Positions 26,684 through 64,000 of a DNA stretch of 64,000 bases are shown here, in pieces. Origin of the DNA: Procambarus clarkii. Its lineage: Eukaryota; Arthropoda; Malacostraca; Decapoda; Cambaridae. The notes under the pieces are model-generated. The model saw only the letters and a program-made list of their open reading frames with translations, was not told the origin of the DNA and did not search any database. The stretch lies in NCBI RefSeq assembly GCF_040958095.1, contig NC_091214.1, positions 6,509,242 to 6,573,241 of the forward strand, given 5' to 3'. The position numbers and the translations under genes were made by a program. Position 1 is the first letter of the stretch; every line of letters starts with the position of its first letter.

Positions 26684-26977
26684 TTTTTTTTTTTTTTTTT
26701 TTTTTTTTTTGAGATATATACAAGAGTTGTTACATTCTTGTACAGCCACTAGTACGCGTAGCGTTTCGGGCACGTCCTTAATCCTATGGTCCCTGGAATA
26801 CGATCCCCTGCCGCGAAGAATCGTTTTTTCATCCAAGTACACATTTTACTGTTGCGTTAAACAGAGGCTACAGTTAAGGAATTGCGCCCAGTAAATCCTC
26901 CCCGGCCAGGATACGAACCCATGACATAGCGCTCGCGGAACGCCAGGCGAGTGTCTTACCACTACACCACGGAGACT
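26684..26977 (-). mobile_element. tRNA-derived SINE, copy B (full length)
   Basis: Reverse-complement copy of the unit at 12106, with a T run at 26684-26710 (the A tail), the shared body, and the tRNA-like head ending at 26977. Head and body match copy A closely, with an extra CTTAATCCTATGG segment in the body. Confidence 0.9.
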
Positions 26978-28511
26978 GCTTTTTGCTGTCCTGACCTTAA
27001 TATTCGATGTACAGATTTAATTTTTATACCAATGTAAGAACATATGTATATGTCACCAAAGCATGAGTTAAATCACACAAAAAGCTAAAGAACTACATCG
27101 ATCACTAGCCGTGAGCTCCAAGCAGCGACGAAATATTTCTATTCTTTTCAGGGATGTCAACTTCACACTTGTCCTACAGCGTTAAATTTGGTATCAATAT
27201 GATCGCAATTAAATTTCCTACATGGACATATGCATATAAATGTAGAATCATGATCGCGGCCCACACCAAAAGTGTGTGGAGTGTGCGATTACACTTGCCG
27301 TGTCAACAATACAATAGTCTTTCCACTAAGTTACAATAGAATGCCGTTCTCCTAAATATGCCATGTGCCTATTAGAGAAAACGAAAATTTAATGGCAAAC
27401 ATTTTCATACTCTCCCCAAGTCGATCGAATAAGAATTGGATTTTATACAAATATTTTTTAATCGCGCGTAAATTTACGACGCAGTTGTACTTTTAGGAAA
27501 AAATACGCGTCGGTTATTTACGACCCAGGAGCGGGAAAGTGTTTTAATAACTCTTACAACTGTCACTAGTAACGCGGAAATTACACAACACTCTACCCGT
27601 CTAGCATTCAGTGAGAAAATCCCATTAATCCCTGTCCTACCAGACAGCTGATAAATCTCTTTATTAGTTACGTTAATTTACGTTAAACGGTTACTAATCA
27701 CTCAGCGATGATAAACTCTGATTTACAATGTCCAAAGTGTTAAGAGAACGGTGATCACTCGTGATTACCTTTAGAGTAATTAATTACTATCCTCAAGATC
27801 AATAATGAAACAATTAAATACGCAACCTTTCACACTGGCTCAGCAATTTACATTAAGGTATAAATTCCGTCTGAGCCTTCCATACTCAGACCAATTTAGG
27901 CGGCTAATAACAGTAATTAGCACCACGTTTACGTTATTCTAAAATGACGTTACTCCTCCCACGAGACAATTAAGTGCCGGTACTTCCCCGCAGATAAATA
28001 ACGACGTTACGTTAATGGAACAATGGAGCCTTCGTGTGAGTCGATCAAACAAGGATCGAGGTTAATTACTTTGACTTCCTGAAACACGTCAATTACCCGG
28101 CTCACTGACCGTTAATTACGACAGACAATACTCTAATTCTTATCTGGCTGATGGCTAGGCTCCTTCAGACTACCATAGCTGCTTGGCAGGAAAGTAAATT
28201 AACCCAAACGTATTCTACGTTACTCAAATTGTCAAAGAACAAATTCCCTTAAAGCAATGGGCGTTCCCTTGGTTACGTTATATTAATTGCCTCGCAATCA
28301 CCTCACTGAATACTGGACTTCGATGTCCTACCAGATAAACAGGAGAATATATGTGTACCCAAGTACTCGTCTACAGCCGAGTTCACCCACGACAATGACA
28401 AATCACACTAACAAATCACAGTGATTTACGTTACAATCCGGTTGCAATGACAATACTGCAGAACCTAGTAAAATAACATACAGGACATGAACCCTCTAGA
28501 ACACTGGTTAC
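26978..28511. other. No gene seen
   Basis: AT-rich, many ACGTTA motifs, no open frame with recognisable content, no RNA feature. It may be part of an old non-autonomous element, but I cannot define ends. Confidence 0.5.
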
Positions 28512-31457: not shown

Positions 31458-33390
<1,933 letters not shown>

Positions 33391-43100: not shown

Positions 43101-46100
43101 GGGGACACTCAGCCCAACACTGCTGGTGGGGACGCTCAGCCCAACACTGCTGGTGGAGGGACTCTCACCCCAACACTGCTGGTGGGGACACTCAGCCCAT
43201 CACTGCTGGTGGAGGGACTCTCAGCCCAACACTGCTGGTGGGGACACTCAGCCCAACACTGCTGGTGGGGACACTCAGCCCAACACTGCTGGTGGGGGAC
43301 TCTCAGCCCATCACTGCTGGTGGGGACACTCAGCCCAACACTGCTGGTGGGGGACTCTCAGCCCAACACTGCTGGTGGGGGACTCTCAGCCCAACACTGC
43401 TGGTGGGGACACTCAGCCCAACACTGCTGGTGAGGGACTCTCAGCCCAACACTGCTGGTGGGGACACTCAGCCCAACACTGCTGGTGGGGACACTCAGCC
43501 CAACACTGCTGGTGGAGGGACTCTCAGCCCAACACTGCTGGTGGGGACACTCAGCCCAACACTGCTGGTGGAGGGACTCTCAGCCCAACACTGCTGGTGG
43601 GGGACTCTCAGCCCAACACTTCTGGTGGGGGACTCTCAGCCCAACACTGCTGGTGGGGGACTCTCAGCCCAACACTGCTGGTGGGGACACTCAGCCCAAC
43701 ACTGCTGGTGGGGACACTCAGCCCAACACTGCTGGTGGAGGGACTCTCAGCCCAAAACTGCTGGTGGGGGACACTCAGCCCAACACTGCTGGTGGGGGAC
43801 TCTCAGCCCAACTCTGCTGGTGGGGACACTCAGCCCAACACTGCTGGTGAGGGACTCTCAGCCCAACACTGCTGGTGGGGGACACTCAGCCCAACACTGC
43901 TGGTGGGGACACTCAGCCTAACACTGCTGGTGGGGACACTCAGCCCAACACTGCTGGTGGGGACACTCAGCCCAACACTGCTGGTGGGGACTCTCAGCCC
44001 AACACTGCTGGTGGGGACACTCAGCCCAACACTGCTGGTGGGGACACTCAGCCCAACACTGCTGGTGAGGGACACTCAGCCCAACACTGCTGGTGGAGGG
44101 ACACTCAGCCCAACACTGCTGGTGGGGACAGTCAGCCCAACACTGCTGGTGGGGACACTCAGCCCAACACTGCTGGTGGGGGACACTCAGACCAACACTG
44201 CTGGTGGGGACACTCAGCCCAACACTGCTGGTGGGGACACTCAGCCCAACACTGCTGGTGGGGACACTCAGCCCAACACTGCTGGTGGAGGGACTCTCAC
44301 CCCAACACTGCTGGTGGGGACACTCAGCCCAACACTGCTGGTGGAGGGACTCTCAGCCCAACACTGCTGGTGGGGACACTCAGCCCAACACTGCTGGTGG
44401 GGACACTCAGCCCAACACTGCTGGTGGGGGACTCTCAGCCCAACACTGCTGGTGGGGACACTCAGCCGAACACTGCTGGTGGGGGACTCTCAGCCCAACA
44501 CTGCTGGTGGGGGACTCTCAGCCCAACACTGCTGGTGGGGACATTCAGCCCAACACTGCTGGTGAGGGACTTTCAGCCCAACACTGCTGGTGGGGACACT
44601 CAGCCCAACACTGCTGGTGGGGACACTCAGCCCAACACTGCTGGTGGAGGGACTCTCAGCCCAACACTGCTGGTGGAGGGACACTCAGCCCAACACTGCT
44701 GGTGGAGGACACTCAGCCCAACACTGCTGGTGGGGACACTCAGCCCAACACTGCTGGTGGAGGGACTCTCACCCCAACACTGCTGGTGGGGGACTCTCAG
44801 CCCAACACTGCTGGTGGGGGACTCTCAGCCCAACATTGCTGGTGGGGACACTCAGCCCAACACTGCTGGTGGGGACACTCAGCCCAACACTGCTGGTGGG
44901 GACACTCAGCCCAACACTGCTGGTGGGGGACTCTCAGCCCAACACTGCTGGTGAGGGACTTTCAGCCCAACACTGCTGGTGAGGGACTTTCAGCCCAACA
45001 CTGCTGGTGGGGGACACTCAGCCATACACTGCTGGTGAGGGACTTTCAGCCCAACACTGCTGGTGGGGGACACTCAGCCCAACACTGCTGGTGGGGACAC
45101 TCAGCCCAACACTGCTGGTGGAGGGACACTCAGCCCAACACTGTTGGTGGAGGGACACTCAGCCCAACACTGCTGGTGGGGACACTCAGCCCAACACTGC
45201 TGGTGGAGGGACACTCAGCCCAACACTGCTGGTGGGGACACTCAGCCCAACACTGCTGGTGGGGACTCTCAGCCCAACACTGCTGGTGGGGGACACTCAG
45301 CCCAACACAGGTGGTGGAGGACACTCAGCCCAACACTGCTGGTGGGGACACTCAGCCCAACACTGCTGGTGGGGGACTCTCAGCCCAACACTGCTGGTGG
45401 GGACTCTCAGCCCAACACTGCTGGTGGGGGACACTCAGCCCAACACTGCTGGTGGGGTCACTCAGCCCAACACTGCTGGTGGGGACACTCAGCCCAACAC
45501 TGCTGGTGGGGACACTCAGCCGAACACTGCTGGTGGGGGACTCTCAGCCCAACACTGCTGGTGGAGGACACTCAGCCCAACACTGCTGGTGGAGGACACT
45601 CAGCCCAACACTGCTGGTGGAGGACACTCAGCCCAACACTGCTGGTGGGGACACTCAGCCCAACACTGCTGGTGGAGGGACTCTCAGCCCAACACTGCTG
45701 GTGGAGGGACACTCAGCCCAACACTGCTGGTGGGGACACTCAGCCCAACACTGCTGGTGGGGACACTCAGCCCAACACTGCTGGTGGAGGGACTCTCAGC
45801 CCAACACTGCTGGTGGGGACACTCAGCCCAACACTGCTGGTGGGGACACTCAGCCCAACACTGCTGGTGGAGGGACTCTCACCCCAACACTGCTGGTGGG
45901 GACACTCAGCCCATCACTGCTGGTGGAGGGACTCTCAGCCCAACACTGCTGGTGGGGACACTCAGCCCAACACTGCTGGTGGGGGACTCTCAGCCCATCA
46001 CTGCTGGTGGGGACACTCAGCCCAACACTGCTGGTGGGGGACTCTCAGCCCAACACTGCTGGTGGGGGACTCTCAGCCCAACACTGCTGGTGGGGACACT

Positions 46101-49100
46101 CAGCCCAACACTGCTGGTGAGGGACTCTCAGCCCAACACTGCTGGTGGGGACACTCAGCCCAACACTGCTGGTGGGGACACTCAGCCCAACACTGCTGGT
46201 GGAGGGACTCTCAGCCCAACACTGCTGGTGGGGACACTCAGCCCAACACTGCTGGTGGAGGGACTCTCAGCCCAACACTGCTGGTGGGGGACTCTCAGCC
46301 CAACACTTCTGGTGGGGGACTCTCAGCCCAACACTGCTGGTGGGGGACTCTCAGCCCAACACTGCTGGTGGGGACACTCAGCCCAACACTGCTGGTGGGG
46401 ACACTCAGCCCAACACTGCTGGTGGAGGGACTCTCAGCCCAAAACTGCTGGTGGGGGACACTCAGCCCAACACTGCTGGTGGGGGACTCTCAGCCCAACT
46501 CTGCTGGTGGGGACACTCAGCCCAACACTGCTGGTGAGGGACTCTCAGCCCAACACTGCTGGTGGGGGACACTCAGCCCAACACTGCTGGTGGGGACACT
46601 CAGCCTAACACTGCTGGTGGGGACACTCAGCCCAACACTGCTGGTGGGGACACTCAGCCCAACACTGCTGGTGGGGACTCTCAGCCCAACACTGCTGGTG
46701 GGGACACTCAGCCCAACACTGCTGGTGGGGACACTCAGCCCAACACTGCTGGTGAGGGACACTCAGCCCAACACTGCTGGTGGAGGGACACTCAGCCCAA
46801 CACTGCTGGTGGGGACAGTCAGCCCAACACTGCTGGTGGGGACACTCAGCCCAACACTGCTGGTGGGGGACACTCAGACCAACACTGCTGGTGGGGACAC
46901 TCAGCCCAACACTGCTGGTGGGGACACTCAGCCCAACACTGCTGGTGGGGACACTCAGCCCAACACTGCTGGTGGGGGACACTCAGCCCAACACTGCTGG
47001 TGGAGGACACTCAGCCTAACACTGCTGGTGGGGACTCTCAGCCCAACACTGCTGGTGGAGGACACTCAGCCCAACACTGCTGGTGGAGGACACTCAGCCC
47101 AACACTGCTGGTGGGGACGCTCAGCCCAACACTGCTGGTGGGGACACTCAGCCCAACACTGCTGGTGGGGACACTCAGACCAAGACTGCTGGTGGAGGAC
47201 AATCAGCCCAACACTGCTGGTGGAGGGACACTCAGCCCAACACTGCTGGTGGGGGACACTCAGCCCAACACTGCTGGTGGGGACACTCAGCCCAACACTG
47301 TTGGTGGGGACACTCAGCCCAACACTGCTGGTGGGGGACACTCAGCCCAACACTGCTGGTGGGGGACACTCAGCCTAACACTGCTGGTGGGGACTCTCAG
47401 CCCAACACTGCTGGTGGAGGACACTCAGCCCAACACTGCTGGTGGAGGACACTCAGCCCAACACTGCTGGTGGGGACACTCAGCCCAACACTGCTGGTGG
47501 AGGGACACTCAGCCCAACACTGCTGGTGGGGACACTCAGCCCAACACTGCTGGTGGAGGACACTCAGCCTAACACTGCTGGTGGAGGGACTCTCAGCCCA
47601 ACACTGCTGGTGGGGACTCTCAGCCCAACACTGCTGGTGGGGACACTCCGCCTAACACTGCTGGTGGAGGGACTCTCAGCCCAACACTGCTGGTGGGGGG
47701 ACTCTCAGCCCAACACTGCTGGTGGGGACTCTCAGCCCAACACTGCTGGTGGGGACTCTCAGCCCAACACTGCTGGTGGGGACTCTCAGCCCAACACTGC
47801 TGGTGGGGACACTCAGCCCAACACTGCTGGTGGGGGACTCTCAGCCCAACACTGCTGGTGGGGGGACTCTCAGCCCAACACTGCTGGTGGGGACTCTCAG
47901 CCCAACACTGCTGGTGTGGGACACTCTGCCCAACACTGCTGGTGGGGGACTCTCAGCCCAACACTGCTGGTGGGGACACTCAGCCCAACACTGCTGGTGG
48001 GGACTCTCAGCCCAACACTGCTGATGGAGGACACTCAGCCCAACACTGCTGGTGGGGACACTCAGCAGAACACTGCTGGTGGGGACACTCAGCCCAACAC
48101 TGCTGGTGGGGGACTCTCAGCCCAACACTGCTGGTGTTGACACTCAGCCCAACACTGCTGGTGGGGACACTCAGCCCAACACTGCTGGTGGGGACACTCA
48201 GCCCAACACTGCTGGTGGGGACACTCAGCCCAACACTGCTGGTGGGGACACTCAGCCCAACACTGCTGGTGGAGGGACACTCAGCCCAACACTGCTGGTG
48301 GGGGGACTCTCAGCCCATCACTGCTGGTGGGGACTCTCAGCCCAACACTGCTGGTGGAGGGACTCTCAGCCCAACACTGCTGGTGGGGGACACTCAGCCC
48401 AACACTGCTGGTGGGGACACTCAGCCCAACACTGCTGGTGGGGGACACTCAGCCCAACACTGCTGGTGGGGACACTCAGCCCAACACTGCTGGTGGGAAC
48501 ACTCATCCCAACACTGCTGGTGGAGGACACTCAGCCCAACACTGCTGGTGGGGACACTCAGCCCAACACTGCTGGTGGAGGACACTCAGCCCAACACTGC
48601 TGGTGGAGGACACTCAGCCCAACACTGCTGGTGGGGGACACTCAGCCCAACACTGCTGGTGGGGACACTCAGCCCAACACTGCTGGTGGGGACACTCAGC
48701 CCAACACTGCTGGTGGGGACACTCAGCCCAACACTGCTGGTGGAGGGACACTCAGCCCAACACTGATGGTGGGGGACACTCAGCCCAACACTGCTGGTGG
48801 GGACTCTCAGCCCAACACTGCTGGTGGGGGACTCTCAGCCCAACACTGCTGGTGGGGACACTCAGGCCAACACTGCTGGTGGGGACACTCAGCTCAACAC
48901 TGCTGGTGGGGACACTCAGACCAACACTGCTGGTGGAGGACACTCAGCCCAACACTGCTGGTGGGGGACTCTCAGCCCAACACTGCTGGTGGGGGACACT
49001 CAGCCCAACACTGCTGGTGGGGACTCTCAGCCCAACACTGCTGGTGAGGACACTCAGCCCAACAGTGCTGGTGGGGGACACTCAGCCCAACACTGCTGGT

Positions 49101-52100
49101 GGGGACACTCAGCCCAACACTTCTGGTGGAGGACACTCAGCCCAACACTGCTGGTGGGGACTCTCAGCCCAACACTGCTGGTGGGGGACTCTCAGCCCAA
49201 CACTGCTGGTGGAGGACACTCAGCCCAACACTGCTGGTGGAGGACACTCAGCCCAACACTGCTGGTGGGGGACTCTCAGCCCAACACTGCTGGTGGGGAC
49301 TCTCAGCCCAACACTGCTGGTGGGGACACTCAGCCCAACACTGCTGGTGGAGGGACTCTCAGTCCAACACTGCTGGTGGGGACACTCAGCCCAACACTGC
49401 TGGTGGGGACACTCAGCCCAACACTGTTGGTGGGGACTCTCAGCCCAACACTGCTGGTGGAGGGACTCTCAGCCCAAAACTGCTGGTGGGGGACACTCAG
49501 CCCAACACTGCTGGTGGGGGACTCTCAGCCCAACTCTGCTGGTGGGGACACTCAGCCCAACACTGCTGGTGAGGGACTCTCAGCCCAACACTGCTGGTGG
49601 GGGACACTCAGCCCAACACTGCTGGTGGGGACACTCAGCCTAACACTGCTGGTGGGGACACTCAGCCCAACACTGCTGGTGGGGACACTCAGCCCAACAC
49701 TGCTGGTGGGGACTCTCAGCCCAACACTGCTGGTGGGGACACTCAGCCCAACACTGCTGGTGGGGACACTCAGCCCAACACTGCTGGTGAGGGACACTCA
49801 GCCCAACACTGCTGGTGGAGGGACACTCAGCCCAACACTGCTGGTGGGGACAGTCAGCCCAACACTGCTGGTGGGGACACTCAGCCCAACACTGCTGGTG
49901 GGGGACACTCAGACCAACACTGCTGGTGGGGACACTCAGCCCAACACTGCTGGTGGGGACACTCAGCCCAACACTGCTGGTGGGGACACTCAGCCCAACA
50001 CTGCTGGTGGGGGACACTCAGCCCAACACTGCTGGTGGAGGACACTCAGCCTAACACTGCTGGTGGGGACTCTCAGCCCAACACTGCTGGTGGAGGACAC
50101 TCAGCCCAACACTGCTGGTGGAGGACACTCAGCCCAACACTGCTGGTGGGGACGCTCAGCCCAACACTGCTGGTGGGGACACTCAGCCCAACACTGCTGG
50201 TGGGGACACTCAGACCAAGACTGCTGGTGGAGGACAATCAGCCCAACACTGCTGGTGGAGGGACACTCAGCCCAACACTGCTGGTGGGGGACACTCAGCC
50301 CAACACTGCTGGTGGGGACACTCAGCCCAACACTGTTGGTGGGGACACTCAGCCCAACACTGCTGGTGGGGGACACTCAGCCCAACACTGCTGGTGGGGG
50401 ACACTCAGCCTAACACTGCTGGTGGGGACTCTCAGCCCAACACTGCTGGTGGAGGACACTCAGCCCAACACTGCTGGTGGAGGACACTCAGCCCAACACT
50501 GCTGGTGGGGACACTCAGCCCAACACTGCTGGTGGAGGGACACTCAGCCCAACACTGCTGGTGGGGACACTCAGCCCAACACTGCTGGTGGAGGACACTC
50601 AGCCTAACACTGCTGGTGGAGGGACTCTCAGCCCAACACTGCTGGTGGGGACTCTCAGCCCAACACTGCTGGTGGGGACACTCCGCCTAACACTGCTGGT
50701 GGAGGGACTCTCAGCCCAACACTGCTGGTGGGGGGACTCTCAGCCCAACACTGCTGGTGGGGACTCTCAGCCCAACACTGCTGGTGGGGACTCTCAGCCC
50801 AACACTGCTGGTGGGGACTCTCAGCCCAACACTGCTGGTGGGGACACTCAGCCCAACACTGCTGGTGGGGGACTCTCAGCCCAACACTGCTGGTGGGGGG
50901 ACTCTCAGCCCAACACTGCTGGTGGGGACTCTCAGCCCAACACTGCTGGTGTGGGACACTCTGCCCAACACTGCTGGTGGGGGACTCTCAGCCCAACACT
51001 GCTGGTGGGGACACTCAGCCCAACACTGCTGGTGGGGACTCTCAGCCCAACACTGCTGATGGAGGACACTCAGCCCAACACTGCTGGTGGGGACACTCAG
51101 CAGAACACTGCTGGTGGGGACACTCAGCCCAACACTGCTGGTGGGGGACTCTCAGCCCAACACTGCTGGTGTTGACACTCAGCCCAACACTGCTGGTGGG
51201 GACACTCAGCCCAACACTGCTGGTGGGGACACTCAGCCCAACACTGCTGGTGGGGACACTCAGCCCAACACTGCTGGTGGGGACACTCAGCCCAACACTG
51301 CTGGTGGAGGGACACTCAGCCCAACACTGCTGGTGGGGGGACTCTCAGCCCATCACTGCTGGTGGGGACTCTCAGCCCAACACTGCTGGTGGAGGGACTC
51401 TCAGCCCAACACTGCTGGTGGGGGACACTCAGCCCAACACTGCTGGTGGGGACACTCAGCCCAACACTGCTGGTGGGGGACACTCAGCCCAACACTGCTG
51501 GTGGGGACACTCAGCCCAACACTGCTGGTGGGAACACTCATCCCAACACTGCTGGTGGAGGACACTCAGCCCAACACTGCTGGTGGGGACACTCAGCCCA
51601 ACACTGCTGGTGGAGGACACTCAGCCCAACACTGCTGGTGGAGGACACTCAGCCCAACACTGCTGGTGGGGGACACTCAGCCCAACACTGCTGGTGGGGA
51701 CACTCAGCCCAACACTGCTGGTGGGGACACTCAGCCCAACACTGCTGGTGGGGACACTCAGCCCAACACTGCTGGTGGAGGGACACTCAGCCCAACACTG
51801 ATGGTGGGGGACACTCAGCCCAACACTGCTGGTGGGGACTCTCAGCCCAACACTGCTGGTGGGGGACTCTCAGCCCAACACTGCTGGTGGGGACACTCAG
51901 GCCAACACTGCTGGTGGGGACACTCAGCTCAACACTGCTGGTGGGGACACTCAGACCAACACTGCTGGTGGAGGACACTCAGCCCAACACTGCTGGTGGG
52001 GGACTCTCAGCCCAACACTGCTGGTGGGGGACACTCAGCCCAACACTGCTGGTGGGGACTCTCAGCCCAACACTGCTGGTGAGGACACTCAGCCCAACAG

Positions 52101-53490
52101 TGCTGGTGGGGGACACTCAGCCCAACACTGCTGGTGGGGACACTCAGCCCAACACTTCTGGTGGAGGACACTCAGCCCAACACTGCTGGTGGGGACTCTC
52201 AGCCCAACACTGCTGGTGGGGGACTCTCAGCCCAACACTGCTGGTGGAGGACACTCAGCCCAACACTGCTGGTGGAGGACACTCAGCCCAACACTGCTGG
52301 TGGGGGACTCTCAGCCCAACACTGCTGGTGGGGACTCTCAGCCCAACACTGCTGGTGGGGACACTCAGCCCAACACTGCTGGTGGAGGGACTCTCAGTCC
52401 AACACTGCTGGTGGGGACACTCAGCCCAACACTGCTGGTGGGGACACTCAGCCCAACACTGTTGGTGGGGACTCTCAGCCCAACACTGCTGGTGGAGGGA
52501 CTCTCAGCCCAACACTGTTGGTGGGGACTCTCAGCCCAACACTGCTGGTGGGGGACTCTCAGCCCAACACTGCTGGTGGAGGGACTCTCAGCCCAACACT
52601 GCTGGTGGAGGGACTCTCAGCCCAACACTGCTGGTGGGGACTCTCAACCCAACACTGCTGGTGGGGGACTCTCAGCATAACACTGCTGGTGGGGACACTC
52701 AGCCCAACACTGCTGGTGGGGGACAATCAGCCCAACACTGATGGTGGGGGGGGGGGGACTCTCAGCCCAACACTGCTGGTGAAGGGGGGGACTCTCAGCG
52801 CAACACTGCTGGTGGGGGGGGACTCTCAGCCCAACACTGCTGGTGGGGGGACTCTCAGCCCAACACTGCTGTTGTGGGGACTCTCAGCCTAACGCTGCTG
52901 TTGTGGGGACTCTCAGCCTAACGCTGCTGTTGTGGGGACTCTCAGCGCAACACTGCAGGTGGAGGGACTCTCAGCCCAACACTGCTGGAGGGGGACTCTC
53001 AGCCTAACGCTGCTGGTGGGGGACTCTCAGCGCAACACTGCAGGTGGAGGGACTCTCAGCCCAACACTGCTGGAGGGGGACTCTCAGCCTAACGCTGCTG
53101 GTGGGGGACTCTCAGCGCAACACTGCTGGTGTGGGGACTCTCAGCGCAACACTGCTGGTGTGTGGACTCTCAGCGCAACACTGCTGGTGGGGGGGGGGAC
53201 TCTCAGCCCAACACTGCTGGAGGGGGACTCTCAGCCTAACGCTGCTGGTGGGGGACTCTCAGCGCAACACTGCTGGTGTGGGGACTCTCAGCGCAACACT
53301 GCTGGTGGGGGGGGGGACTCTCAGCCCAACACTGCTGGGGGGGTGGGGGCTTTCAGCCCAACACTGTTGTTGGAGGAACTCTCAGCCCAACACTGCTAGT
53401 GGTGGAGACTCTCAGCGCAACACTGCTGGTGTAGGGACTCTCAGCCTAACGCTGCTGTTGGGGGGACTCTCAGCCTAACGGTGCTGAGTA
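34175..53490 (+). repeat. 26-29-bp minisatellite array, about 19 kb and 700 units
   Basis: Head-to-tail units share CTCAGCCCAACACTGCTGG followed by TGGGG and ACA or ACT. Unit length varies with the G run and an optional GA insert (GGTGGAGGGAC, GGTGGAGGAC, GGTGGGGAC). Mixed lengths of 26-29 shift the frame but create almost no stops, so long His/Trp/Cys or Ser/Pro/Thr open frames appear in all frames and are not genes. Rare variants recur at fixed large spacings, showing kilobase duplications. The right edge (52740-53490) is degenerate, with GCGCAACACTG and CCTAACGCTG variants and longer G runs. Confidence 0.97.
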
Positions 53491-54171
53491 GTGAATAAGG
53501 AGACAGATTGAGGTAAAAAAATTTCAGAAACGGTTGGGCACTTCCATGCCGACTTGACCCTGGCGGGCCAGATCGTCCATTCCTCTTATTTTGGGTGGTT
53601 AGTTTAGGGCACAGTCAGCGCGCTCCTGTCTGGCTGGCGGGGTTGGGTGGTGGTCCCCCCTTGGGGTCCCGGGGGAGACCACCACCCAGGGTGTACCTGA
53701 GGAACTGGTGCCCTATCCTAACCTGTTTTTTTTTACTTTTTGTCGCCTTGCTTTAAGATGAGTCTAGGGCCTCAAGAAGGGGGTCTCTACTTATGAGAGG
53801 TACCGAGGATGAATGTTCAATAGTTGGAAACCAAAAAATACACTGGTGAAAGGCATATAAACGTTTTTGGAGTATTTTAATGGCATGAGCAAAAATGCAC
53901 GATTTGTCCCGGGGGTGTTACGAGAGTACTACGGTATCAATTTGGGGGCCCTTACTTTTGAATGGATCAGAGGGTGAATGTTCAATAGATTCAAACCAAG
54001 AAACGCAGTTGAAAGCGAATATAGAAGTTTTTGGAGTACTTTAATGAGGCTATGACTGAATAGTATAGGGAGTCCTTGGGCACAGCTCCATTTTCTGTAA
54101 TGGTCAGAGGTGGATAACCCCAGTGGGGGTCAAGCATACAAGGGGGGTCAAGATTCCTTACAAAGACCATT
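53491..54171. other. No gene seen
   Basis: Short GC-rich stretch (53560-53720) then AT-richer sequence. Two related segments (GAATGTTCAATAG at about 53809 and 53976, and TTTTTGGAGTA at about 53862 and 54029) lie about 167 bp apart, suggesting an old local duplication. Confidence 0.5.
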
Positions 54172-54442
54172 TTGGATATATACAACAAGAGTTGTTACAT
54201 TCTTGTACAGCCACTAGTACGCGTAGCGTTTCGGGCAAGTCCTTAATCCTATGGTCCCTGGAATACGATCCCCTGCCGCGAAGAACCGTTTTTTCATCCA
54301 AGTACACATTTTACTGTTGCGTTAAACAGAGGCTACAGATAAGGAATTGCGCCCAGTAAATCCTCCCCGGCCAGGATACGAACCCATGACATAGCGCTCG
54401 CGGAACGCTAGGCGAGTGTCTTACCACTACACCACGGAGACT
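54172..54442 (-). mobile_element. tRNA-derived SINE, copy C
   Basis: Reverse-complement copy of the family at 12106 and 26684, with tRNA-like head at 54380-54442 and shared body. It lacks the long T run at the tail side. Confidence 0.88.
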
Positions 54443-55297
54443 GCTTATAGGTGTAGATATATAGGTGTAGTAAGCCTTATCTTGAATTCGCATGATACTG
54501 TGGGGTACATTGACATGAAGGGCGAGTCATAGAACAGGATCTGCATGTGAGATGGGTCATATTGGGGTTTTAAAGAAGTTAAGATAGCTTTAAAGAGTCC
54601 TGTGTGCTTGATAGTGGGGAAATGTTCAGTCAATAATTCTCGTGTTTTGAATCTGAATGAGGGGTCCTAGTTTGAGTTCTAGTCGTAAAATGAGTTCCTT
54701 AGTATATTTGCTATGGAAATGAGCTTTCAGTACTCTATATAATTTGAAATGACGTCAAGAAAGACATGTTTATGTGCGAGAAGAGTCAGGTTGGAAACTG
54801 TTTATTCCAGTCATCCTCCCTTGGCTTTGCTTCGTTTTCTTTAGCTAAAGTAAAGATTCCATTTTCTGTGGTATTCAGTTGACTACTGGTGAAAAAGGCA
54901 TACTTGCATTTGTATGGTTCTAACCTGTTTATAGATTTTATAGATATATTTTTCGGGCCTCAAATTAGATTTTAATATGAAAAATAGCATCAAATGTATG
55001 TCTATCTTTTGTAATAAACGTTACAAGCATTAACAATACCTGTGATATTTCATAGCATACAAAAAGAAGTTTAAATAGTGGGGCCTCAGCCATATAATGT
55101 TGGGTTTGACACTCCATACATTAATTTGACACTCGTAAATGTACTATAAAGGAAAGTAGTTGAGTGGTTTAAGTAATTTAATACGTACTGGGGATCTGTT
55201 TGTATTCTGTATTAAATTTCGTTTTTTAACATAATAGTTTTCAGCTATTGTGGTGGGGGCCCAATAACTTCATATAGCGCAACGACTGGCGCTATCT
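54443..55297. other. No gene seen
   Basis: AT-rich sequence with scattered stops in all frames; nothing that I can support. Confidence 0.5.
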
Positions 55298-55860
55298 GTA
55301 CTTAGTCCCCCCTAAACTTAAAACTGTTGCACAATCTTAATTAAACACATTGCTAAACTCTTATACACAAGCAAAAACTCAATTTTTAACTTACACAAAT
55401 AAACCCAGGGCTTTCACATTCGCGCAAAATACTTAGTCCCCCTAAACTTAAAACAGTTGCACAATCTTACTTAAACACATTGCTAAACTCTTATACACAA
55501 ACAAAAACTCAATTTTTAACTTACACAAATAAACCCAGGGCTTTCACATTCGCACAAAATACTTAGTCCCCCCTAAACTTAAAACAGTTGCACAATCTTA
55601 CTTAAACACATTGCTAAACTCTTATACACAAACAAAAACTCAATTTTTAACTTACACAAATAAACCCAGGGCTTTCACATTCGCGCAAAATACTTAGTCC
55701 CCCCTAAACTTAAAACAGTTGCACAATCTTACTTAAACACATTGCTAAACTCTTATACACAAACAAAAACTCAATTTTTAACTTACACAAATAAACCCAG
55801 GGCTTTCACATTCGCGCAAAATACTTAGTCCCCCCTAAACTTGAACACTCACAATCTTAC
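55298..55860 (+). repeat. 131-bp tandem repeat, four copies plus a partial fifth
   Basis: Units start at CTTAGTCCCCC at 55301, 55432, 55562, 55693 and 55824, that is every 130-131 bp. Copies differ at only a few positions, so the expansion is recent. The fifth copy breaks off after about 25 bases. Confidence 0.95.
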
Positions 55861-57063
55861 GGTGCTTAATTTCCAAAGCCTTCCAAACCTGCACTGGGTC
55901 CTGCCCAGCTGACTGCGGCTGGATGGATTACAATTGAGCCAAAAACAGTTGGTCAGGGCGAGATACGGCCTCATTTTTAGAGACATTTACTATAGCAAAA
56001 GCTTGAACGTCGAAAACTGAATGCGGGCCTGCACGAGAGTTGTTCTTGGCACTCGAATGTTTAGAGATTAAAATACATAGAATCTGCAAGAGCCCACCCC
56101 AAGTCGCTTACGCGGGCAATAGACATGTTTTTCGCCCAAATGTATTTATTTAAAATAATACGTCAGATAGAAAGAGTTTCGCATTGCTATTATATTTACC
56201 TTATAAAGCCTCTTTATAAAAATGATATGCCACTGTGTATTATGATTGTTTTAAAATAAATATTGCATAAATACTTACACGATTTCATAAACAAAAAAAA
56301 ACTTTTAATGAGCCATAGTTGGAAGGCTTCATCATTACAGTAAATACAAACTTATAAAACTAATTAAAAATATATATCTTATAGAGGAAGATTTATTCTT
56401 CAGGATATATATTATTTATTAATTAAGAGTTTCATTCTGTTTAAAAAAAAGTTGCCAATATTTTCAAATCGCTGGCCACAAATTTTTTATAAAGGTTTTC
56501 CAAGGGAGTAAATCTTGCTTCCTCTCTTTCTCCCAAATGTTTCCTCATTTGCACAGGAGCAGAGCAACCTTCGTGCGGGCCCTGGTTCAGTTCCCCAACG
56601 TCCGAGATATTGGACATTACAAATTTCACTAAATGATTCATTATCTTAGCAGCCTCTCTAATTATAAAGTTGTTAATCTTTTTTATAACCTTTGAGTGCT
56701 AGTTCTCAAAAGGTTCTTTACCTCAGAAAGAGAGAGAGAGATTCTATTTTTGTCCATATTCGAGCAGAATGTTGAGCAACCTTCGTGCAGGACCCGGTTC
56801 AGTTCCCCAACGTCCGAGCTATTGCACATAGCAAATTTCTCTAAATGAGGCAGTATCTCGCCCCCACCCCCCGGATCAATGATTTTAGGGCAGTAAATAA
56901 GCAATTGCAATCTAATCCCCCCCCCCCCCCAAAAAAAAATACTGTTCATGAAAATGTGAGCTTATTTATACTAATTTATGAATATAAAAAAACAACTCGA
57001 CATTTGTACAATTTTTATTTACATAAATAAATTAGTCTCTATGTCTTCTTAGTTTTTGTCTTC
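55861..57063. other. No gene seen; contains a diverged direct duplication
   Basis: Two segments of about 90 bp (around 56560-56645 and 56765-56850) share CAACCTTCGTGC, GGTTCAGTTCCCCAACGTCC and AAATTTC, about 205 bp apart. On the minus strand both can be read as a similar short peptide (SDVGELN...HEGCS), but stops and lack of context argue against a gene. Poly-C runs lie near 56918-56930. Confidence 0.5.
57014..57019 (-). terminator. AATAAA polyadenylation signal of the IAP-type gene
   Basis: AATAAA on the minus strand, about 45 bases after the stop codon at 57064-57066, a normal distance. Confidence 0.65.
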
Positions 57064-58042
57064 TTAGGAAATAATCGGTCGAAGGACATGCGAAATGGTG
57101 CGTCTGCAAATGGGGCAGTTTCTCATAGATACAAGACAATTACTGCATGTTACCATATGTCTGCAGGGCAGCAGTACGACACTCAACGCATTGTTAAAGC
57201 ACACCTTACACAAAATATCAGCAGCCCAAGACGTTGGCGTAGATGTGTTCATCACAGTTTCAACATGGGATGTCGCATTAAAGTCTGTGGCCTCTTCGCC
57301 AGTTTCAACATCCATTTCATTAGCGACTATAGTCGTCTCTTCCGCCTCTGTTTCAACAGGAGAAGGCAAAGCCCGCAAACCAAGATTAGTGCTCATGAAC
57401 CCGCTCATTGATCCAACAACGTCGACATCCATTTCATTAGCTGTGGCGACTGTTTCCATGTCAGAGGGCGCGGATTGCCATTCCAGATTCGCAGGCTCTA
57501 CCCTACCTTCCACATCCTCATGATGAATTCCCCTTAAACCCATTTCGGCTTTAGTGCTCTCTTGCATATACCACAACATTAATTCTATACATCTGGCCTC
57601 TGTAACAAACGGTAATAAATCTTTGGTGCTTTTGAGATATAGCCTTAAGGCAGGTCTCACACAGACATCAGGAAATCCAAAATGTTCAATTAATGCTGGG
57701 AAAAAACCCAAACCTTCCATCAGACCAGTTAAAAGATGTTCATCTATGGGTTTTATAGTTCGACGCTGCGAAGATTCTCAAACATTCTTAATGAACTGTG
57801 CATCCTTTTTAATGTTGACAAAGGTGCACTCAGGATACCATTGCGCGTGCAGTGTCCAAGGGTCGTCAGCGGGTTCCCAATTACGAAAACCATTCCCACA
57901 GAAAAAGCAGCGCATGTGGTCACTTAGGCCTGTAAATTTAAGAAAAAAAATATTCCCATTCATTATTATTATTATAGCTCACATCCGGCAATGTTGTAAT
58001 ACAAAAGCACACACACACGCGCACACACACACACACACACTT

Positions 58043-58095
58043 CCCGGGACCAAAGAGCCAGAGCTCCACCCCCGCAAGCACAATTGGGGGAGTAA
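58043..58095 (+). mobile_element. LINE 3' tail fragment in IAP intron 2
   Basis: GGGACCAAAGAGCCAGAGCT and CGCAAGCACAATT match the tail of LINE copy 2 (17270-17319). Only the last 50 or so bases are present, consistent with extreme 5' truncation. Confidence 0.7.
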
Positions 58096-58101
58096 ACACA
58101 C

Positions 58102-58289
58102 TTTTTTTTTCAGATATATACAAGAGTTGTTACATTCTTGTACGGCCTAGCATTTCGGGCAGGTCCCTAGAATACAATCCCCACCTCGAAGAATCGTTTT
58201 TTACAACCAAGTACCCATTTTACTGTTGAGTTAAACAGAGGCTACAGTTAAGGATTTGCGCCCATTAAATCCTCCCCGGCCAGGAGGAT
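58102..58289 (-). mobile_element. tRNA-derived SINE, copy D (truncated)
   Basis: T run at 58102-58110, then the SINE body in reverse orientation with small internal losses. It ends before the tRNA-like head is complete. It lies inside intron 2 of the IAP-type gene in the gene's own sense. Confidence 0.8.
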
Positions 58290-59149
58290 ACACACGCACA
58301 CACTAAAAATAACAAAAACTCCAACAATATTTGTTTACCACAGAAGAAAAATCCTGATTCTGCCAATTCGTGAGATGTTTGCTTGACACAACCAGTCCAG
58401 CTGAGGTCGAATGTTTCCAAACGCTGTTTGTATGTTGCCAAGCCTGGATATCTAGGTTTAGCGTATGGAATTACCCCCAGAACCTGCAAATCATCTCCAG
58501 TCATTTTAGTTTCTTCCTCGCGGGGTGGGGTCTCTAAAAAAACAAAGATGCTCCATCACATATATGCATAAGACACAGGTTCTAAGTCAATTCTTTCAAA
58601 AACAAAAAAAAATAAAGAAAAATTATTTGAAAAGACTTACTGCGTTTATACTTATTTTTTTTTTTTTTGTCCTCCCTCCACATCGCCAATACTAATTATT
58701 CACAGATAAACTAGTAAATTATATTTATACAATATACTCACGATCAGATGTTGCTATATTCTTTGGTTCGAATAGGGGTGAAAAGAAATCCAGCCCATAT
58801 TCGAATGCCAGTTTGGTGATTTCCAAAGGAACGTTATTGTCCTTTTCGCCTCTTATGAAGGAACAATTTGGCGACACTTTCGCATGCCTACTACGGGGCG
58901 TATCGCCCTCAATCCAAGCATGCACAACTTTACAACAAAAGGCGCAGGAACAATGATCCGCAACTCTCAGATAATAAAATCCCTCATTCACCAGGTCTTG
59001 GGGGTTTAGCCACTCGACAGGCCAATTTATAAAGGTGTCTAAACGCACTTGGGCACATTTAAGACTGTCCCTGGAGTAAAACGTTTTAGTACGGGAAGGT
59101 TCCATTGTGTACTGGTGCGACACTGGCGAATGGAGGCAAGATCCTAGGC

Positions 59150-59157
59150 TATATATT
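59150..59157 (-). promoter_or_regulatory. TATA box of the IAP-type gene
   Basis: Minus-strand ATATATAG about 45-50 bases before the ATG. A start site near 59125 (CCAGTG, resembling the arthropod initiator) would give a leader of about 20 bases. Confidence 0.55.
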
Positions 59158-59159
59158 GC

Positions 59160-59948
59160 CCGTCCTTTCCCTCCCCGAAATAAGTGTCAAAGATCGCTAC
59201 ATATGTGCTAGTTTCTTCTTTTTTTTTGGTTTAGCAATTCTAGCCACCGCTACTCTTTTTTTTATGGCATAATTATGAGGAAACAGGGAAAGGAAAAAAT
59301 GACTCGTAAATGTGCTAAATCATGTTGCATAATGCAGTGAATTAAAAAAAAAAAAGATGGCAGTTGGTAGTCTAGGAAAGGTGACCAAGTACTTATTTTT
59401 TGTGATAATTATCGAGAAATGTCATTAACTACATAAGGTATCCCTAATGTCAATAAGTTATCACAAACCTTCCAATAATGATGTGGCCTCCATGACTTTA
59501 TATATATTTCATTAAGGGAATATGGTCTGACTACGGTTTTTTCATGGGGGGGGGGGGGGAACATTAAAAAAAAAATGGAAACATGTCGCACTGTGTTTGA
59601 CCTTTTCTGCTTCTGAAAAAAAAGGTTGCCAGTGTTTGGGTATTAAGCTGACGTATATTGATATTTTATGGCAAGATATTTTGAGATACATATTGCGCTA
59701 TTTGAGGTGGTTTTTTTTTATGCTAATTAAGTCAGTGAAAAAAAATGTTCCTATGGGCTTCTTGTTGGTCGAGGCCCTTATAATAATAATATAAATATTT
59801 GCTCAGTACGTGGTAACTTTTACACGCACTAGCAGGGATGGAGATATAAGGGCGCAAAGCCCCCACGACGAATATTCGCAGGGTCGACACAGGGCGGTTG
59901 ACTAGGCTTTATCCAAAACATAAGGGAAAGTAAAAAAAAAAAAGAAAA
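59160..59948. other. Intergenic region between the divergent IAP-type and first macro-like genes
   Basis: AT-rich, with A and T homopolymers and a poly-G run at 59548-59559. It holds the promoters of both flanking genes at its ends and no further gene that I can support. Confidence 0.5.
59843..59850 (+). promoter_or_regulatory. TATA box of macro-like gene 1
   Basis: GATATAAGG, about 100 bases before the ATG at 59949, with no intervening ATG. A start site about 30 bases downstream would give a leader of about 70 bases. Confidence 0.5.
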
Positions 59949-60632
59949 ATGGAGACGTGGCTGGAAACGCACACCGGATATTTAACCGATGAAGAATTTT
60001 ACAATAATGAAACTTGCATTGTGTATCCTGTAAACTGCATATCTTGCGTCCCGTACGGGATGGCGAAGGACATATCAGTGAAATACAAACACGCAAGCGC
60101 CTATGGTGAACGCAGGCCTTTGTATAATCTCAAGAGATGTGTTCCCCATGATCGACCAATTCCCGGTTCAATTCATGTCTCCAATCGTCGAGTTGAAAAT
60201 CTCCCCTGCATTATTGCTGCTGCAGTGCAATATGGTATAGGGGCGCCTGTAGAGAACAATGAGATCGCCAAGTCGCATATAGAAAAATCCAAAGATCGTG
60301 ATATGCTCACCGGATTAAAAGAAGATACAACGCAAAATCGCCTCATCTATTTCAAAAAGGCTATAGAAGCCATAACGAGATTCATCAAGTCTTCTCCGGA
60401 AATCGCACGAGTTGTATTACCTGTGGGTATTGGTCGCACCTGTGTTCAAAGAGATGAAGTTTGGGAGGAAACATATCTTCCAATTATCGAAGATCTGTAT
60501 GAAAACTTAAAACATTACGATGTTAATGTTATATTGGTGCGTAATGACCAGAGCTCCAAGGAAAAAAAAAATGTCCCTGGCAACTCTACGATGCGCAGTT
60601 GTCCCCCGCGCCGGCGTGAAAAGTGTATATAG
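59949..60632 (+). CDS. Macro-domain-like protein 1 (227 aa), intronless
   Basis: Residues 21-45 (ETCIVYPVNC, then YGMAKDISVKY) look like the first strand and loop of a macro domain, where a Gly-Ala/Met-Ala-type loop meets ADP-ribose. Next come DRPIPGSI (68-75), a hydrophobic strand LPCIIAAAVQ (85-94), GLKEDTTQNRLIYFKKAI (122-139) and RVVLPVGIGRTC (154-165), like the PxxGxG loop that holds the ribose/phosphate, followed by VWEETYLPIIEDL (171-183). Length fits a single domain plus a short basic tail. Macro domains bind or remove ADP-ribose; which applies here is unknown. It is the first of three tandem paralogues, diverges from the IAP-type gene, and its stop codon lies inside the next gene's TATA box. 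I recognise the fold only by motif, so the family call is tentative; that it is a real gene is more secure. Confidence 0.7.
   Translation: METWLETHTGYLTDEEFYNNETCIVYPVNCISCVPYGMAKDISVKYKHASAYGERRPLYNLKRCVPHDRPIPGSIHVSNRRVENLPCIIAAAVQYGIGAPVENNEIAKSHIEKSKDRDMLTGLKEDTTQNRLIYFKKAIEAITRFIKSSPEIARVVLPVGIGRTCVQRDEVWEETYLPIIEDLYENLKHYDVNVILVRNDQSSKEKKNVPGNSTMRSCPPRRREKCI
60626..60632 (+). promoter_or_regulatory. TATA box of macro-like gene 2, overlapping the stop of gene 1
   Basis: TATATAG; its last three bases are the TAG stop of gene 1. An initiator-like TCAGCAC at about 60660 lies about 30 bases further on, just before the ATG at 60669, giving a very short leader. Confidence 0.65.
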
Positions 60633-60668
60633 ACCCCCTTCCGAGTCACCACCTCACAAGTCAGCACT

Positions 60669-61646
60669 ATGGAGCTCCCCTCCCTGATTGGCGACTTTGC
60701 CTCTTTGCCCATCTATAACAATCGTGATTGTCTGCTCTATGATTTGGATGCAACAAGCGTGCAGTTGAGCGAAATGGTGCACACTTTATGGGAACGATAC
60801 CCCTATGCTCGATTGCATCGGAAAAACCTGCCGTACAAAAATCGTGCTGTTAGAACTGATAGAGATATCCCCGGCCTCATATTTGTTGGCGAAGCACCCG
60901 AATTCTGCAATAGGATGGATGACGACCCCTATGAAAGTTATGCTGTTTTACCGCACCTTATTGGATTAATCACCCAGTTTACCAACGGCCCAGCGACGCC
61001 ATCTTCTTACAAAAAGCCCAGGTACGAAGCATGGAGTTTGGATGAGCATTTTTATGACGGCCTGAAAAATGATACCGAATACCAAAGATGGCGTTGGTTT
61101 GACAAAGCTCTGCGAAAAGCCATTGAACATATTCTTCAGAGAAGCCGAAGAGGACAAGTGGGAAGGATTATTTTCCCATATGGGTTGGGCAAGGCTTGCG
61201 GGCAGTATCTCACAAGTGGCGAACGCAACATATGGGAGACTAAATATTTCCCTGTGATGTGCAAATTAGCTCAGAAACTGCAAGAACGTGGTATAGACAC
61301 TTTAATGATATGTCCTGTAAATAATGACACGCCAACTCGCTCTCCAACCCATGGCATCTTTAGACACAAGATTCCACGTATGGCCATTCCACCTGTTTCT
61401 ACGAATGATAAAGACTCTGTTTCTACTGTCGGACCTGCCGCTGACGTGAGAGAAGACGGGTCAGCTGTCGTGGAAGATACCACGAGCGTTGCTGTGGAAG
61501 ATGATCCATCTACCGGCACCATGTCTGTTACTGTAGGAGATGAAGTGCTCACTATTGTGGAAGACGCCGACAATGAAGACAAAGAGAAAATGGAAATGGA
61601 ATATAATGAAGATGAGATTAGAAAAGCTGTAGAATCTATATTGTAA
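60669..61646 (+). CDS. Macro-domain-like protein 2 (325 aa) with acidic tail
   Basis: The same domain plan as gene 1: RDCLLYDLD (19-27), LWERYPYARL (40-49), DRDIPGLIFVG (64-74), VLPHLIGLITQ (93-103), GLKNDTEYQRWRWFDKAL (131-148), GRIIFPYGLGKACG (165-178), then IWETKYFPVMCKLAQKL (188-204). The domain ends near residue 220. The last 100 or so residues are Thr/Val/Asp/Glu-rich, ending in an acidic stretch, and are likely disordered. The reading frame is intact. Only 36 bases separate it from the stop of gene 1, yet it has its own TATA and initiator. An ATTAAA follows the stop by about 15 bases as the likely polyadenylation signal. The ADP-ribose-binding role is inferred. Confidence 0.7.
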   Translation: MELPSLIGDFASLPIYNNRDCLLYDLDATSVQLSEMVHTLWERYPYARLHRKNLPYKNRAVRTDRDIPGLIFVGEAPEFCNRMDDDPYESYAVLPHLIGLITQFTNGPATPSSYKKPRYEAWSLDEHFYDGLKNDTEYQRWRWFDKALRKAIEHILQRSRRGQVGRIIFPYGLGKACGQYLTSGERNIWETKYFPVMCKLAQKLQERGIDTLMICPVNNDTPTRSPTHGIFRHKIPRMAIPPVSTNDKDSVSTVGPAADVREDGSAVVEDTTSVAVEDDPSTGTMSVTVGDEVLTIVEDADNEDKEKMEMEYNEDEIRKAVESIL

Positions 61647-61659
61647 TATTTCATACAAA

Positions 61660-61665
61660 TTAAAC
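61660..61665 (+). terminator. ATTAAA polyadenylation signal of macro-like gene 2
   Basis: The common AATAAA variant, just after the stop codon. The 150 or so bases that follow are a T-rich and (CA)n-containing spacer before the next TATA box. Confidence 0.45.
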
Positions 61666-61832
61666 CACAAAAAAAGAAATGTTAACCTGTATTTTTATTT
61701 ACTTTTCCTAATTTCTCTACACACACACACACACACATTTATTTATTTATTGTTTCCTAATTTCTCTGTACAAAAAGAAAAACTATGAATTACATATTAT
61801 AAAAGCCTCTAACAACTCTATGTGACAAGGTG

Positions 61833-61840
61833 TATATAAG
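61833..61840 (+). promoter_or_regulatory. TATA box of macro-like gene 3
   Basis: TATATAAG. The first ATG (61850) is only 10 bases past it, too close for a start site 25-30 bases downstream. The in-frame ATG at 61880 is therefore the better start. Confidence 0.6.
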
Positions 61841-61879
61841 ACGAAGGTTATGTTAAAAAACCTTTTTAATCGCTTCGAG

Positions 61880-62623
61880 ATGTGTTCCAACTACATGCGA
61901 GCCAAATTACGGAGACTCAAAGATTCTATTATTGAAGTGGATTTCCCCAACGATGATATATTTAAACCCGGGGACTGTATTGTCTATGATCTTCCTGCCC
62001 TACACCAGTTTTCTAATGGTTACTCCCAACAGCTGTGGGAAAAATATCCTTATGGGGTGGTTGAAAAGAAAATATGTCCTGAAACGCTTTGTGCTGTAGT
62101 TACGGATCGTGACACTCCAGGAAATATAATCCTCTCCCCGCCACCAGAACCTAATGTGCAGCCTTATCTCTTAGCCCTCATATGTCAATAGTGTGTAGGT
62201 GCGTCTATTGAAAATAATGACATTAACCAATTTCATATTAAGCACAGTAAAGATATTGATTTAGTAGCGGGATTGCGGAGAGATACAACTATCAACAGAC
62301 GATGGTGTTTTAAAAAGGCCGTGAGTCGCCTTATGAGCGAAGCCAAGAGTAATAATTCTATCAAACGGATAGTTATGCCATTTGGTATAGGCTGCAATTC
62401 TGGGGTGGGTTGGTCTAGAGCGGGTGAAGAAGAAGAATGGCTGGCATCTTACTACCCTACACTGGCTCATTTGGCCCATGTAATGAAAAAATGCAAAAAA
62501 GAATTTGTGCTGGTGCGTCCTAAACAAGATGGAGCAGGGAAAGGTCAAGTACCGCCACAAGTAGTGAAAAGACCATCGAGTAAAAGGAGGAACCTTAGAT
62601 TTTATTACACTAACGACGAATAA
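61880..62623 (+). pseudogene. Macro-domain-like gene 3, interrupted by one TAG
   Basis: One frame with a single stop, TAG at 62189-62191. Before it: PGDCIVYDLP, LWEKYPYG, TDRDTPGNIIL and PYLLALICQ. After it: GLRRDTTINRRWCFKKAV, KRIVMPFGIGCNSG and EEWLASYYPTLAHL, so both halves of the family's domain are present and in phase. The tail is basic (RPSSKRR). An AATAAA overlaps the region just after the stop (about 62624). Genes 1 and 2 have sense codons at the position of the TAG. It is either a recent pseudogene or a sequence error. I chose the ATG at 61880 because of the TATA spacing; another in-frame ATG lies at 61850. Confidence 0.7.
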
Positions 62624-62639
62624 TAAAAAAAGTGCTTGT

Positions 62640-63041
62640 TTTTTTTTGTATATGTACTCATAATAAAATAAAAAATTGTATAAATGTCAAGTTTTTTTTT
62701 TATCTGTTAAAGTAGTTTTTAAAAATAAGAGAGAGACCTCATCACTTATTCACCCCCATGACAAGTACTCTAGCAAATACTACCTGACATTTTTTTTTTA
62801 ACATATTTCATCTTCAAGGGGAGTGTGCAATAATAATAATAATAATGATACATGATTTTTTTTATTTAGGTAAAAAACACACACATATATATATATATAC
62901 AAACAAAATAATGTTCTGATTGAACAGAGTCTGGGTTGGGGGACAAAGTCTCGGGATTTGGGGATAACCCCCCCCCCCCCATCAGGCCACCTGCACATTG
63001 TTCCTGTAGTATGTCCCCTTTGCATCATTAGTTCCTAAGAG
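62640..63041. other. Intergenic, low complexity
   Basis: Poly-T runs, a (TA)/(CA) stretch at 62878-62900, a run of 12 C at about 62969-62980, and AATAAA-type signals for both flanking genes. No gene seen. Confidence 0.55.
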
Positions 63042-63584
63042 TTATCTTGTGGGTGGAGCTTTATCTAGATCTGCCTTAATGACGGGATGCAAATTTTCCC
63101 TCCAATAAACCTCATCCTCTGGCGCAATTTCCTCAGCTTCGGAGGTGGAACAATAATCCCCATAATCCCCAAAGAAAATTTCTCTAAATGCATTCTGCGC
63201 TCGAACTTTGTCATGATAAATAAACCAGTTTTCACGCTGTTTAAAATCAATCCCCGCAAACTGTTTTTCTATTTCACCTTGGGCTTGCACCCACTCGATA
63301 AAGTTGGGTATTCCATTATACGCCACATTAATCAAGCCTATTCCTATTTCGACAGGTAGTCTTATTTCTGTTTCGTCACAAAAACCGCCATATACGGTCT
63401 CAACGGCGTTAATTTTTTTTGTTTTCTGTCTTTGAACATGTGAGTCTTCTAAATCTGCGCCTTCATACTGCTTTTCAATTGCCGCTAAAGCCTTGACGCG
63501 TGCGATGAACTTGGGCAATTCCTCATACTCCACGACGCAATGACCTCGTGAAATAAATACCAGGGGCGATTCCCTGCATTGCAT
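63042..63584 (-). CDS. Divergent macro-like paralogue 4 (180 aa), possibly with an upstream exon
   Basis: ATG at 63582-63584, stop at 63042-63044. It follows the motif order of genes 1-3, though diverged: GHCVVEYEEL (compare GDCIVYDL), LPVEIGIGLINVAYNG (compare LPHLIGLITQFTNG), GIDFKQRENWFIYHDKV (compare GLKNDTEYQRWRWFDKA), FREIFFGDYGDYC in place of the PxGxG loop, and VYWRENLHPVIKADL (compare IWETKYFPVMCKL). The loss of the PxGxG glycines suggests that it no longer binds the same ligand. A pyrimidine tract ending TTTTATCAG at about 63624-63632 on the minus strand could be a splice acceptor for an upstream exon outside or near the window edge; a weak TTATATC at the same place could instead be a TATA box. 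The paralogy is my alignment by eye. Confidence 0.6.
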   Translation of the reverse strand: MQCRESPLVFISRGHCVVEYEELPKFIARVKALAAIEKQYEGADLEDSHVQRQKTKKINAVETVYGGFCDETEIRLPVEIGIGLINVAYNGIPNFIEWVQAQGEIEKQFAGIDFKQRENWFIYHDKVRAQNAFREIFFGDYGDYCSTSEAEEIAPEDEVYWRENLHPVIKADLDKAPPTR

Positions 63585-64000
63585 CTTCCTCTTTTCCTCA
63601 ACATCTACAGCCTGATGGCCGAGCTCTGATAAAAGATATAACAGAAAAAATTAATTGCATACGCCTATAGAGAGAGAGAAAAAAATCGTTGAACTTTATT
63701 GGATTTCTTTTAGATTTAACTTTTAACTACTTGGAACGAATTATCAATGAGGCACAAACCATGACAAGTCCTGTAAAGTATTAGGGTTTATGCATACCAT
63801 TTATATATAAATGGTATGCAAACATTTTCATGTTTTTAAAACATCCTAAAAACGACATTTCATTGTTTTCAGCACGTTTATAATTACGTTTAGAAAAGGT
63901 TTTTTGAGAACTTTTATATACGACCTTAGAACGTAAATAATTAACATTTCTAAAAACTTTTTTATAATCTTTTAATTACCTACATTAAAACGTTTAGGGT
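63585..64000. other. AT-rich flank, no gene seen
   Basis: Possible promoter or 5' intron of the minus-strand gene at 63584 (pyrimidine tract 63624-63650). A small palindrome ATACCATTTATATATAAATG with its continuation lies at about 63796-63820. Otherwise featureless. Confidence 0.45.

Follow-up and report, generated by a model that had tools for sequence, protein, structure and literature searches.

What do three neighbouring genes of the crayfish Procambarus clarkii encode, and how did they come to lie in its genome? The genes are found in a stretch of 64,000 nucleotides (assembly GCF_040958095.1, contig NC_091214.1, positions 6,509,242 to 6,573,241, forward strand), which is called the window here and in whose coordinates all positions are given. 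The comparisons reported below suggest that they encode strongly diverged macro domains, and that they are probably tandem wsv206/wsv059-like paralogues within a decaying endogenous nimavirus piece, or genes left from one. An original prediction made from the sequence had described four macro-domain-like genes in tandem at this locus; the frames that it described are all present, and the question is which of them belong together, what fold they adopt and where they come from.

Results

A tandem family of three genes

Genes 1, 2 and 3 form one tandem family of intron-free frames on the plus strand. Gene 1 (59949-60632, +) encodes a predicted macro-domain protein of 227 aa, in which the Asn of the PVNC motif is kept and a PVGIG loop is found. 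Gene 2 (60669-61646, +) starts 36 nucleotides after the end of gene 1 and encodes a protein of 325 aa, composed of a predicted macro domain (residues 1 to about 220) and an acidic C-terminal tail modelled with low confidence. Gene 3 (61850-62623, +) is a macro-family gene that consists of two open pieces, g3a (61850-62188) and g3b (62192-62620).

Kinship was assessed by comparing local alignment scores with those of 300 shuffles, gene 2 being cut to its first 235 residues. None of the 300 shuffles reached the score of gene 1 with gene 2 (179, shuffle maximum 56), of gene 1 with g3b (199, maximum 64), of gene 2 with g3a (129, maximum 51) or of gene 2 with g3b (99, maximum 51); the same holds for gene 1 with g3a, whose score of only 49 is barely above the shuffle maximum of 47. 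Of the four-gene family first proposed, genes 1, 2 and 3 are thus related beyond chance, while gene 4 scores at noise level, as described below. Over aligned positions, gene 1 is identical to the core of gene 2 at 63/200 and to the database protein P0004, an unbroken relative of gene 3 (258 aa), at 73/225; the gene 2 core and P0004 share 60/209. A family profile, built from a set including genes 1 and 2 and this near-identical gene 3 relative, matched four of the 1331 window segments (stop to stop, at least 25 residues, fewer than 10 X) with E-values from 6.9e-109 to 4.7e-38, the next being 0.49. Since the profile includes the family's own genes, this result shows only the absence of any further clear copy within the window.

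Gene 3 is not intact: its codon 114 is an in-frame TAG (62189-62191) that splits it. P0004 is identical to the first piece at 113/113 and to the second at 139/143 positions. Near-identical proteins also exist for the two other genes: P0003 and gene 1 agree at 225/227 positions, P0001 and gene 2 at 315/317, one gap aside. A further paralogue, P0002, is identical to the gene 2 core at 126/212. The protein database searches yielded 2, 1 and 5 matches, every one of them tagged 'lgn', which we take to stand for Logan.

Predicted macro fold

Structures were predicted for genes 1 and 2 only, and comparison with Foldseek and VIA-align assigns a macro fold to both. A modest profile-profile match backs these structures. 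The reference alignment (A7) combined YmdB of Escherichia coli with six macro proteins of phages, of which one is annotated as Poa1p-like; in hhalign, the gene-1-led alignment (A2) matched it in register over 148 columns with an E-value of 1.1e-4 and a probability of 56%, and the gene-2-led alignment (A5) was colinear over 148 columns with an E-value of 0.0016 and a probability of 16%. The Pfam Macro profile PF01661 matched none of the six members of A5 at E-values up to 10, while all four control macro proteins were matched; it did not match the gene 3 pieces or gene 4 at E-values up to 1. Membership in the macro superfamily is therefore claimed by fold and not as a Pfam assignment. As far as prediction goes, the macro interpretation appears right.

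Beyond the fold itself, which is that of the Poa1p/DarG/TARG1-type macrodomains, the invariant Gln of the family's Q[YF] aligns with the Gln of the TQ in Poa1p-like phage macro proteins, and the family's PxGxG falls within their LPxIGxGIGG loop. Unlike in the Poa1p/DarG/TARG1 type, the loop after PxGxG is shortened in the crayfish family, and the motif Asn is missing from genes 2 and 3; the family also has insertions relative to the phage proteins, in addition to the missing PF01661 match.

Two sequence searches gave candidates that were rejected. Against the PDB, gene 1 found three matches to a chitinase-like/YM1 protein, at an E-value of only 0.15, and profile A4 found one, at only 0.87. The two matches of gene 1 in a phage collection, at an E-value of 3, were judged to be chance.

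Nearest viral relatives

The structural ranking was made among predicted viral structures only. Gene 1 has 22 viral matches with E-values below 0.001, phage and RNA-virus macro proteins included, and the best of them is A0A401IPE9, a Wsv206-like protein of 200 aa from the Metapenaeus ensis nimavirus (3.3e-10). It is also the best match of gene 2, whose model is poor; together with Wsv059 of white spot syndrome virus (WSSV; Q77J93, 208 aa), which comes second with 1.7e-4, it provides the only matches below 0.001 among the best 50 of 53. Identity in the structural alignments is just 19% between A0A401IPE9 and gene 1, 14% between A0A401IPE9 and gene 2, and 13% between Wsv059 and gene 2, and gene 2 further differs from wsv206-like proteins by its long acidic tail. 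The genes had been called far from any nameable member. This holds by sequence, no macro profile having matched, but by structure the nimaviral Wsv206-like protein and Wsv059 are the nearest viral relatives. The literature passages that name wsv059, as far as they were available, contain no macro-domain description of it.

Bao et al. 2020 (PMC7016691) have described in the endogenous Nimav-1_LVa two wsv206-like macro-domain genes, g034 and g139 of family PF6, together with spliced BIR/RING genes. By the printed coordinates about 110 kb separate g034 from g139, whereas the crayfish three stand in tandem. Family PF1 of the same virus (10 genes of 199-406 aa, with no domain recognised) resembles the crayfish cluster in its tracts of neighbouring genes on mixed strands beside a reverse-strand IAP gene, a likeness by description only (PMC7016691). 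A tandem array of wsv206-like genes was not found described in the parts of the literature covered, outside which supplementary files and most subscription papers lie. In PMC9503650, which treats viral NAD/ADP-ribose systems, neither 'nimavir' nor 'white spot' occurs in the main text.

An IAP-type neighbour

Pieces of a gene of the inhibitor of apoptosis (IAP) type (57067-59186, -) adjoin gene 1 on the opposite strand, with putative exon borders. Searched separately against Pfam, the pieces contain a first BIR domain (58728-59186, -; BIR, 6.5e-17), the first part of a second (58268-58555, -; BIR, 6.9e-4), the rest of it (57781-57978, -; BIR, 1.4e-13) and a RING domain (57067-57777, -; zf-C3HC4_3, 5.3e-13). 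The two BIR and the RING thus lie in separate open pieces of the same strand that would be joined by splicing, and host IAPs can look alike. An in-frame TGA (57778-57780, -) stands between the rest of the second BIR and the RING piece. The original prediction had suggested that tandem duplication with divergence might reflect selection, such as a host-pathogen arms race; in this copy, the premature stops of gene 3 and the IAP point to decay of the cluster.

Between the IAP pieces, in a presumed intron, blastn within the window revealed a repeat (58113-58285, no strand assigned) with 78% identity to a copy at 54 kb; its relatives are found at 12105-12357, at 26707-26989 and at about 54170-54460. 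We take this repeat to be SINE-like (short interspersed element); ARAGORN detected no tRNA gene. A 33-base stretch occurs downstream of both the IAP (56984-57016) and gene 3 (62671-62703), the two being 91% complementary, as if they were a shared 3'-end motif.

The rest of the window

Elsewhere in the window lie a Gypsy-type frame, three further reverse-transcriptase frames (three of the 10 frames scanned) and large satellites. The Gypsy-like frames lie on the minus strand (1206-5483), adjoined by a SCAN-domain frame, and in the frame of 1193 aa the integrase domains precede the reverse transcriptase; the order in Gypsy elements is usually the opposite, with reverse transcriptase before integrase. 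A 19-kb minisatellite array (34175-53486) of 27/55/83-base units, with about 92% matches and about 62% G+C, takes up almost one third of the window. A second long array (17322-22952) has the 14-base unit ACAAGCAAGGCCAC, which is also present at 13080-13653, and a 131-base tandem repeat (55299-55860; 4.3 copies, 97% matches) lies upstream of the cluster. Degenerate (TAACC)n of the arthropod telomere type occurs at 31555-31643, on both strands; (TAACC)n is the insertion site of several endogenous nimaviruses.

Gene 4 and the extent of the family

Gene 4 (63042-63584, -) is a frame of 180 aa for which no kinship to the macro family was found. Its scores were reached by 63/300 shuffles against gene 1, 194/300 against gene 2, 295/300 against g3a and 76/300 against g3b; the family profile gave it -0.6 bits, and hhalign a probability of 0.6% against macro domains and 0.1% against the family. 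It is instead an internally repeated protein with two units, each about 65 residues long (self-alignment score 82, shuffle maximum 46, 0/300), and apart from weak, chance-level rows it has no match in Pfam, PHROG, NCBIfam, PDB or IMG/VR. Gene 4 had been thought to have lost its glycine loop, a claim not borne out given these noise-level scores and its own repeats; judged by its sequence, it is not a member of the macro family. That all four frames would be macro-domain paralogues, as first proposed, could appeal to short stretches of gene 4 that resemble the motifs, for instance a W near its end with P-V-I after it, but in view of the scores and of a repeat structure of its own we find this hardly credible. 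A perfect 30-base palindrome (63791-63820) lies just past gene 4.

Discussion

Origin of the cluster

As nimaviral proteins are the nearest viral structural relatives of genes 1 and 2, the genes most likely are what remains of an ancient virus in the host genome, and together the genes, the IAP, the repeats and the retrotransposon surroundings fit a resident, decaying nimavirus-derived segment. Another large DNA virus with macro domains and IAPs could also have left such a cluster, and the Marseillevirus LCMAC101 protein that ranks second for gene 1 (1.9e-9) speaks for it; this protein is however absent from the best 50 of the 53 hits for gene 2, where both hits below 0.001 are nimaviral, and we regard such a source as very unlikely. 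A fast-evolving macro-domain family of the crustacean host, multiplied in tandem next to an IAP gene of the host and free of viral ancestry, would agree with the repeat located between the IAP pieces, with the retrotransposon frames and satellites that make up much of the remaining window, and with close relatives found only among 'lgn'-tagged entries. It does not account as well for intron-free frames spaced by 36 nucleotides, for best viral structural matches that are nimaviral for both genes (gene 2 having no others below 0.001, among viral structures only), or for endogenous nimaviruses that carry both IAP and macro genes (PMC7016691). A host family is thus unlikely, though less so than another virus.

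Several observations weigh against a nimaviral macro family. IAPs and macro domains occur in animals too. The model of gene 2 is poor (predicted local distance difference test score, pLDDT, 50.5), the models were built on just 7 (gene 1) and 6 (gene 2) alignment rows, and the remaining four models of each gene score lower. No macro match was found in Pfam, PHROGs or NCBIfam, where the lowest E-value for a macro-family protein was 0.0079, to phrog_4384 (unknown function) over 26 residues of P0004, and IMG/VR yielded no relative for five single proteins. The margin by which the nimaviral protein precedes that of LCMAC101 for gene 1 is small. Pfam recognised no nimaviral core gene among 21 distinct frames or pieces, in a window that ends 416 bases past gene 4, and the sole (TAACC)n, the degenerate stretch at 31555-31643, lies about 25 kb from the cluster. 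Kawato et al. 2023 have reported that wsv206 was seemingly acquired independently in majaniviruses and whispoviruses (PMC10871703), so that 'wsv206-like' may join separate acquisitions. With these points taken into account, we still consider a nimaviral origin of genes 1-3, as diverged wsv206/wsv059-like paralogues, quite probable.

Motif residues and proposed activity

Macrodomains serve as readers or erasers of ADP-ribose marks (PMC7050489), and that of alphaviruses is reported to bind ADP-ribose and to de-ADP-ribosylate host proteins (PMC7468284). The loop P-x-G-[IL]-G is common to genes 1, 2 and 3. At the position of the motif Asn after the second strand, which has a role in ADP-ribose-binding macrodomains, the hhalign alignments place, with modest confidence, Asn in gene 1 and Asp in gene 2, and the family alignment places Pro in gene 3. 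Gene 1 would accordingly be the copy likeliest to bind ADP-ribose. TARG1, an ALC1-like hydrolase, uses a catalytic Lys84/Glu125 dyad, of which DarG retains just the Lys, and SCO6735 lacks both residues (PMC7050489); absence of the dyad would therefore not exclude activity.

In the virus, the proteins of genes 1-3 may have attached to ADP-ribose carried by host or viral targets. Gene 1 could remove or mask ADP-ribose marks and so blunt antiviral signalling by poly(ADP-ribose) polymerases (PARPs), while genes 2 and 3, without the motif Asn, might read such marks or act as decoys, with a changed ligand specificity, and the acidic tail of gene 2 may add partner binding. The activity of the present chromosomal copy is probably low or absent. 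For MjeNMV, an endogenous relative, mapping rates are very low and the transcripts in somatic tissue are mainly short and antisense (PMC10871703), so that the crayfish copy may be silent.

Significance

Our work thus describes a diverged, probably nimaviral family of wsv206/wsv059-type genes, in a tandem arrangement that was not found described, and indicates that predicted structure can identify such genes when the sequence profiles tried do not. If this is true, nimavirus-type elements, relatives of the shrimp white spot virus, gain macro-domain content, and three linked paralogues allow a kept ADP-ribose-binding motif to be compared with lost ones. A wider and rather doubtful proposal is that nimaviruses carry a large hidden macro family, in which, in addition to the known wsv206-like genes, Wsv059 and IAP-adjacent tandem blocks such as PF1 would be diverged macro domains forming an arsenal against ADP-ribosylation, with some copies binding ligand and others acting as decoys. 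Should genes of the PF1 type prove to be macro domains too, ADP-ribose signalling would emerge as a main battleground of crustaceans and nimaviruses.

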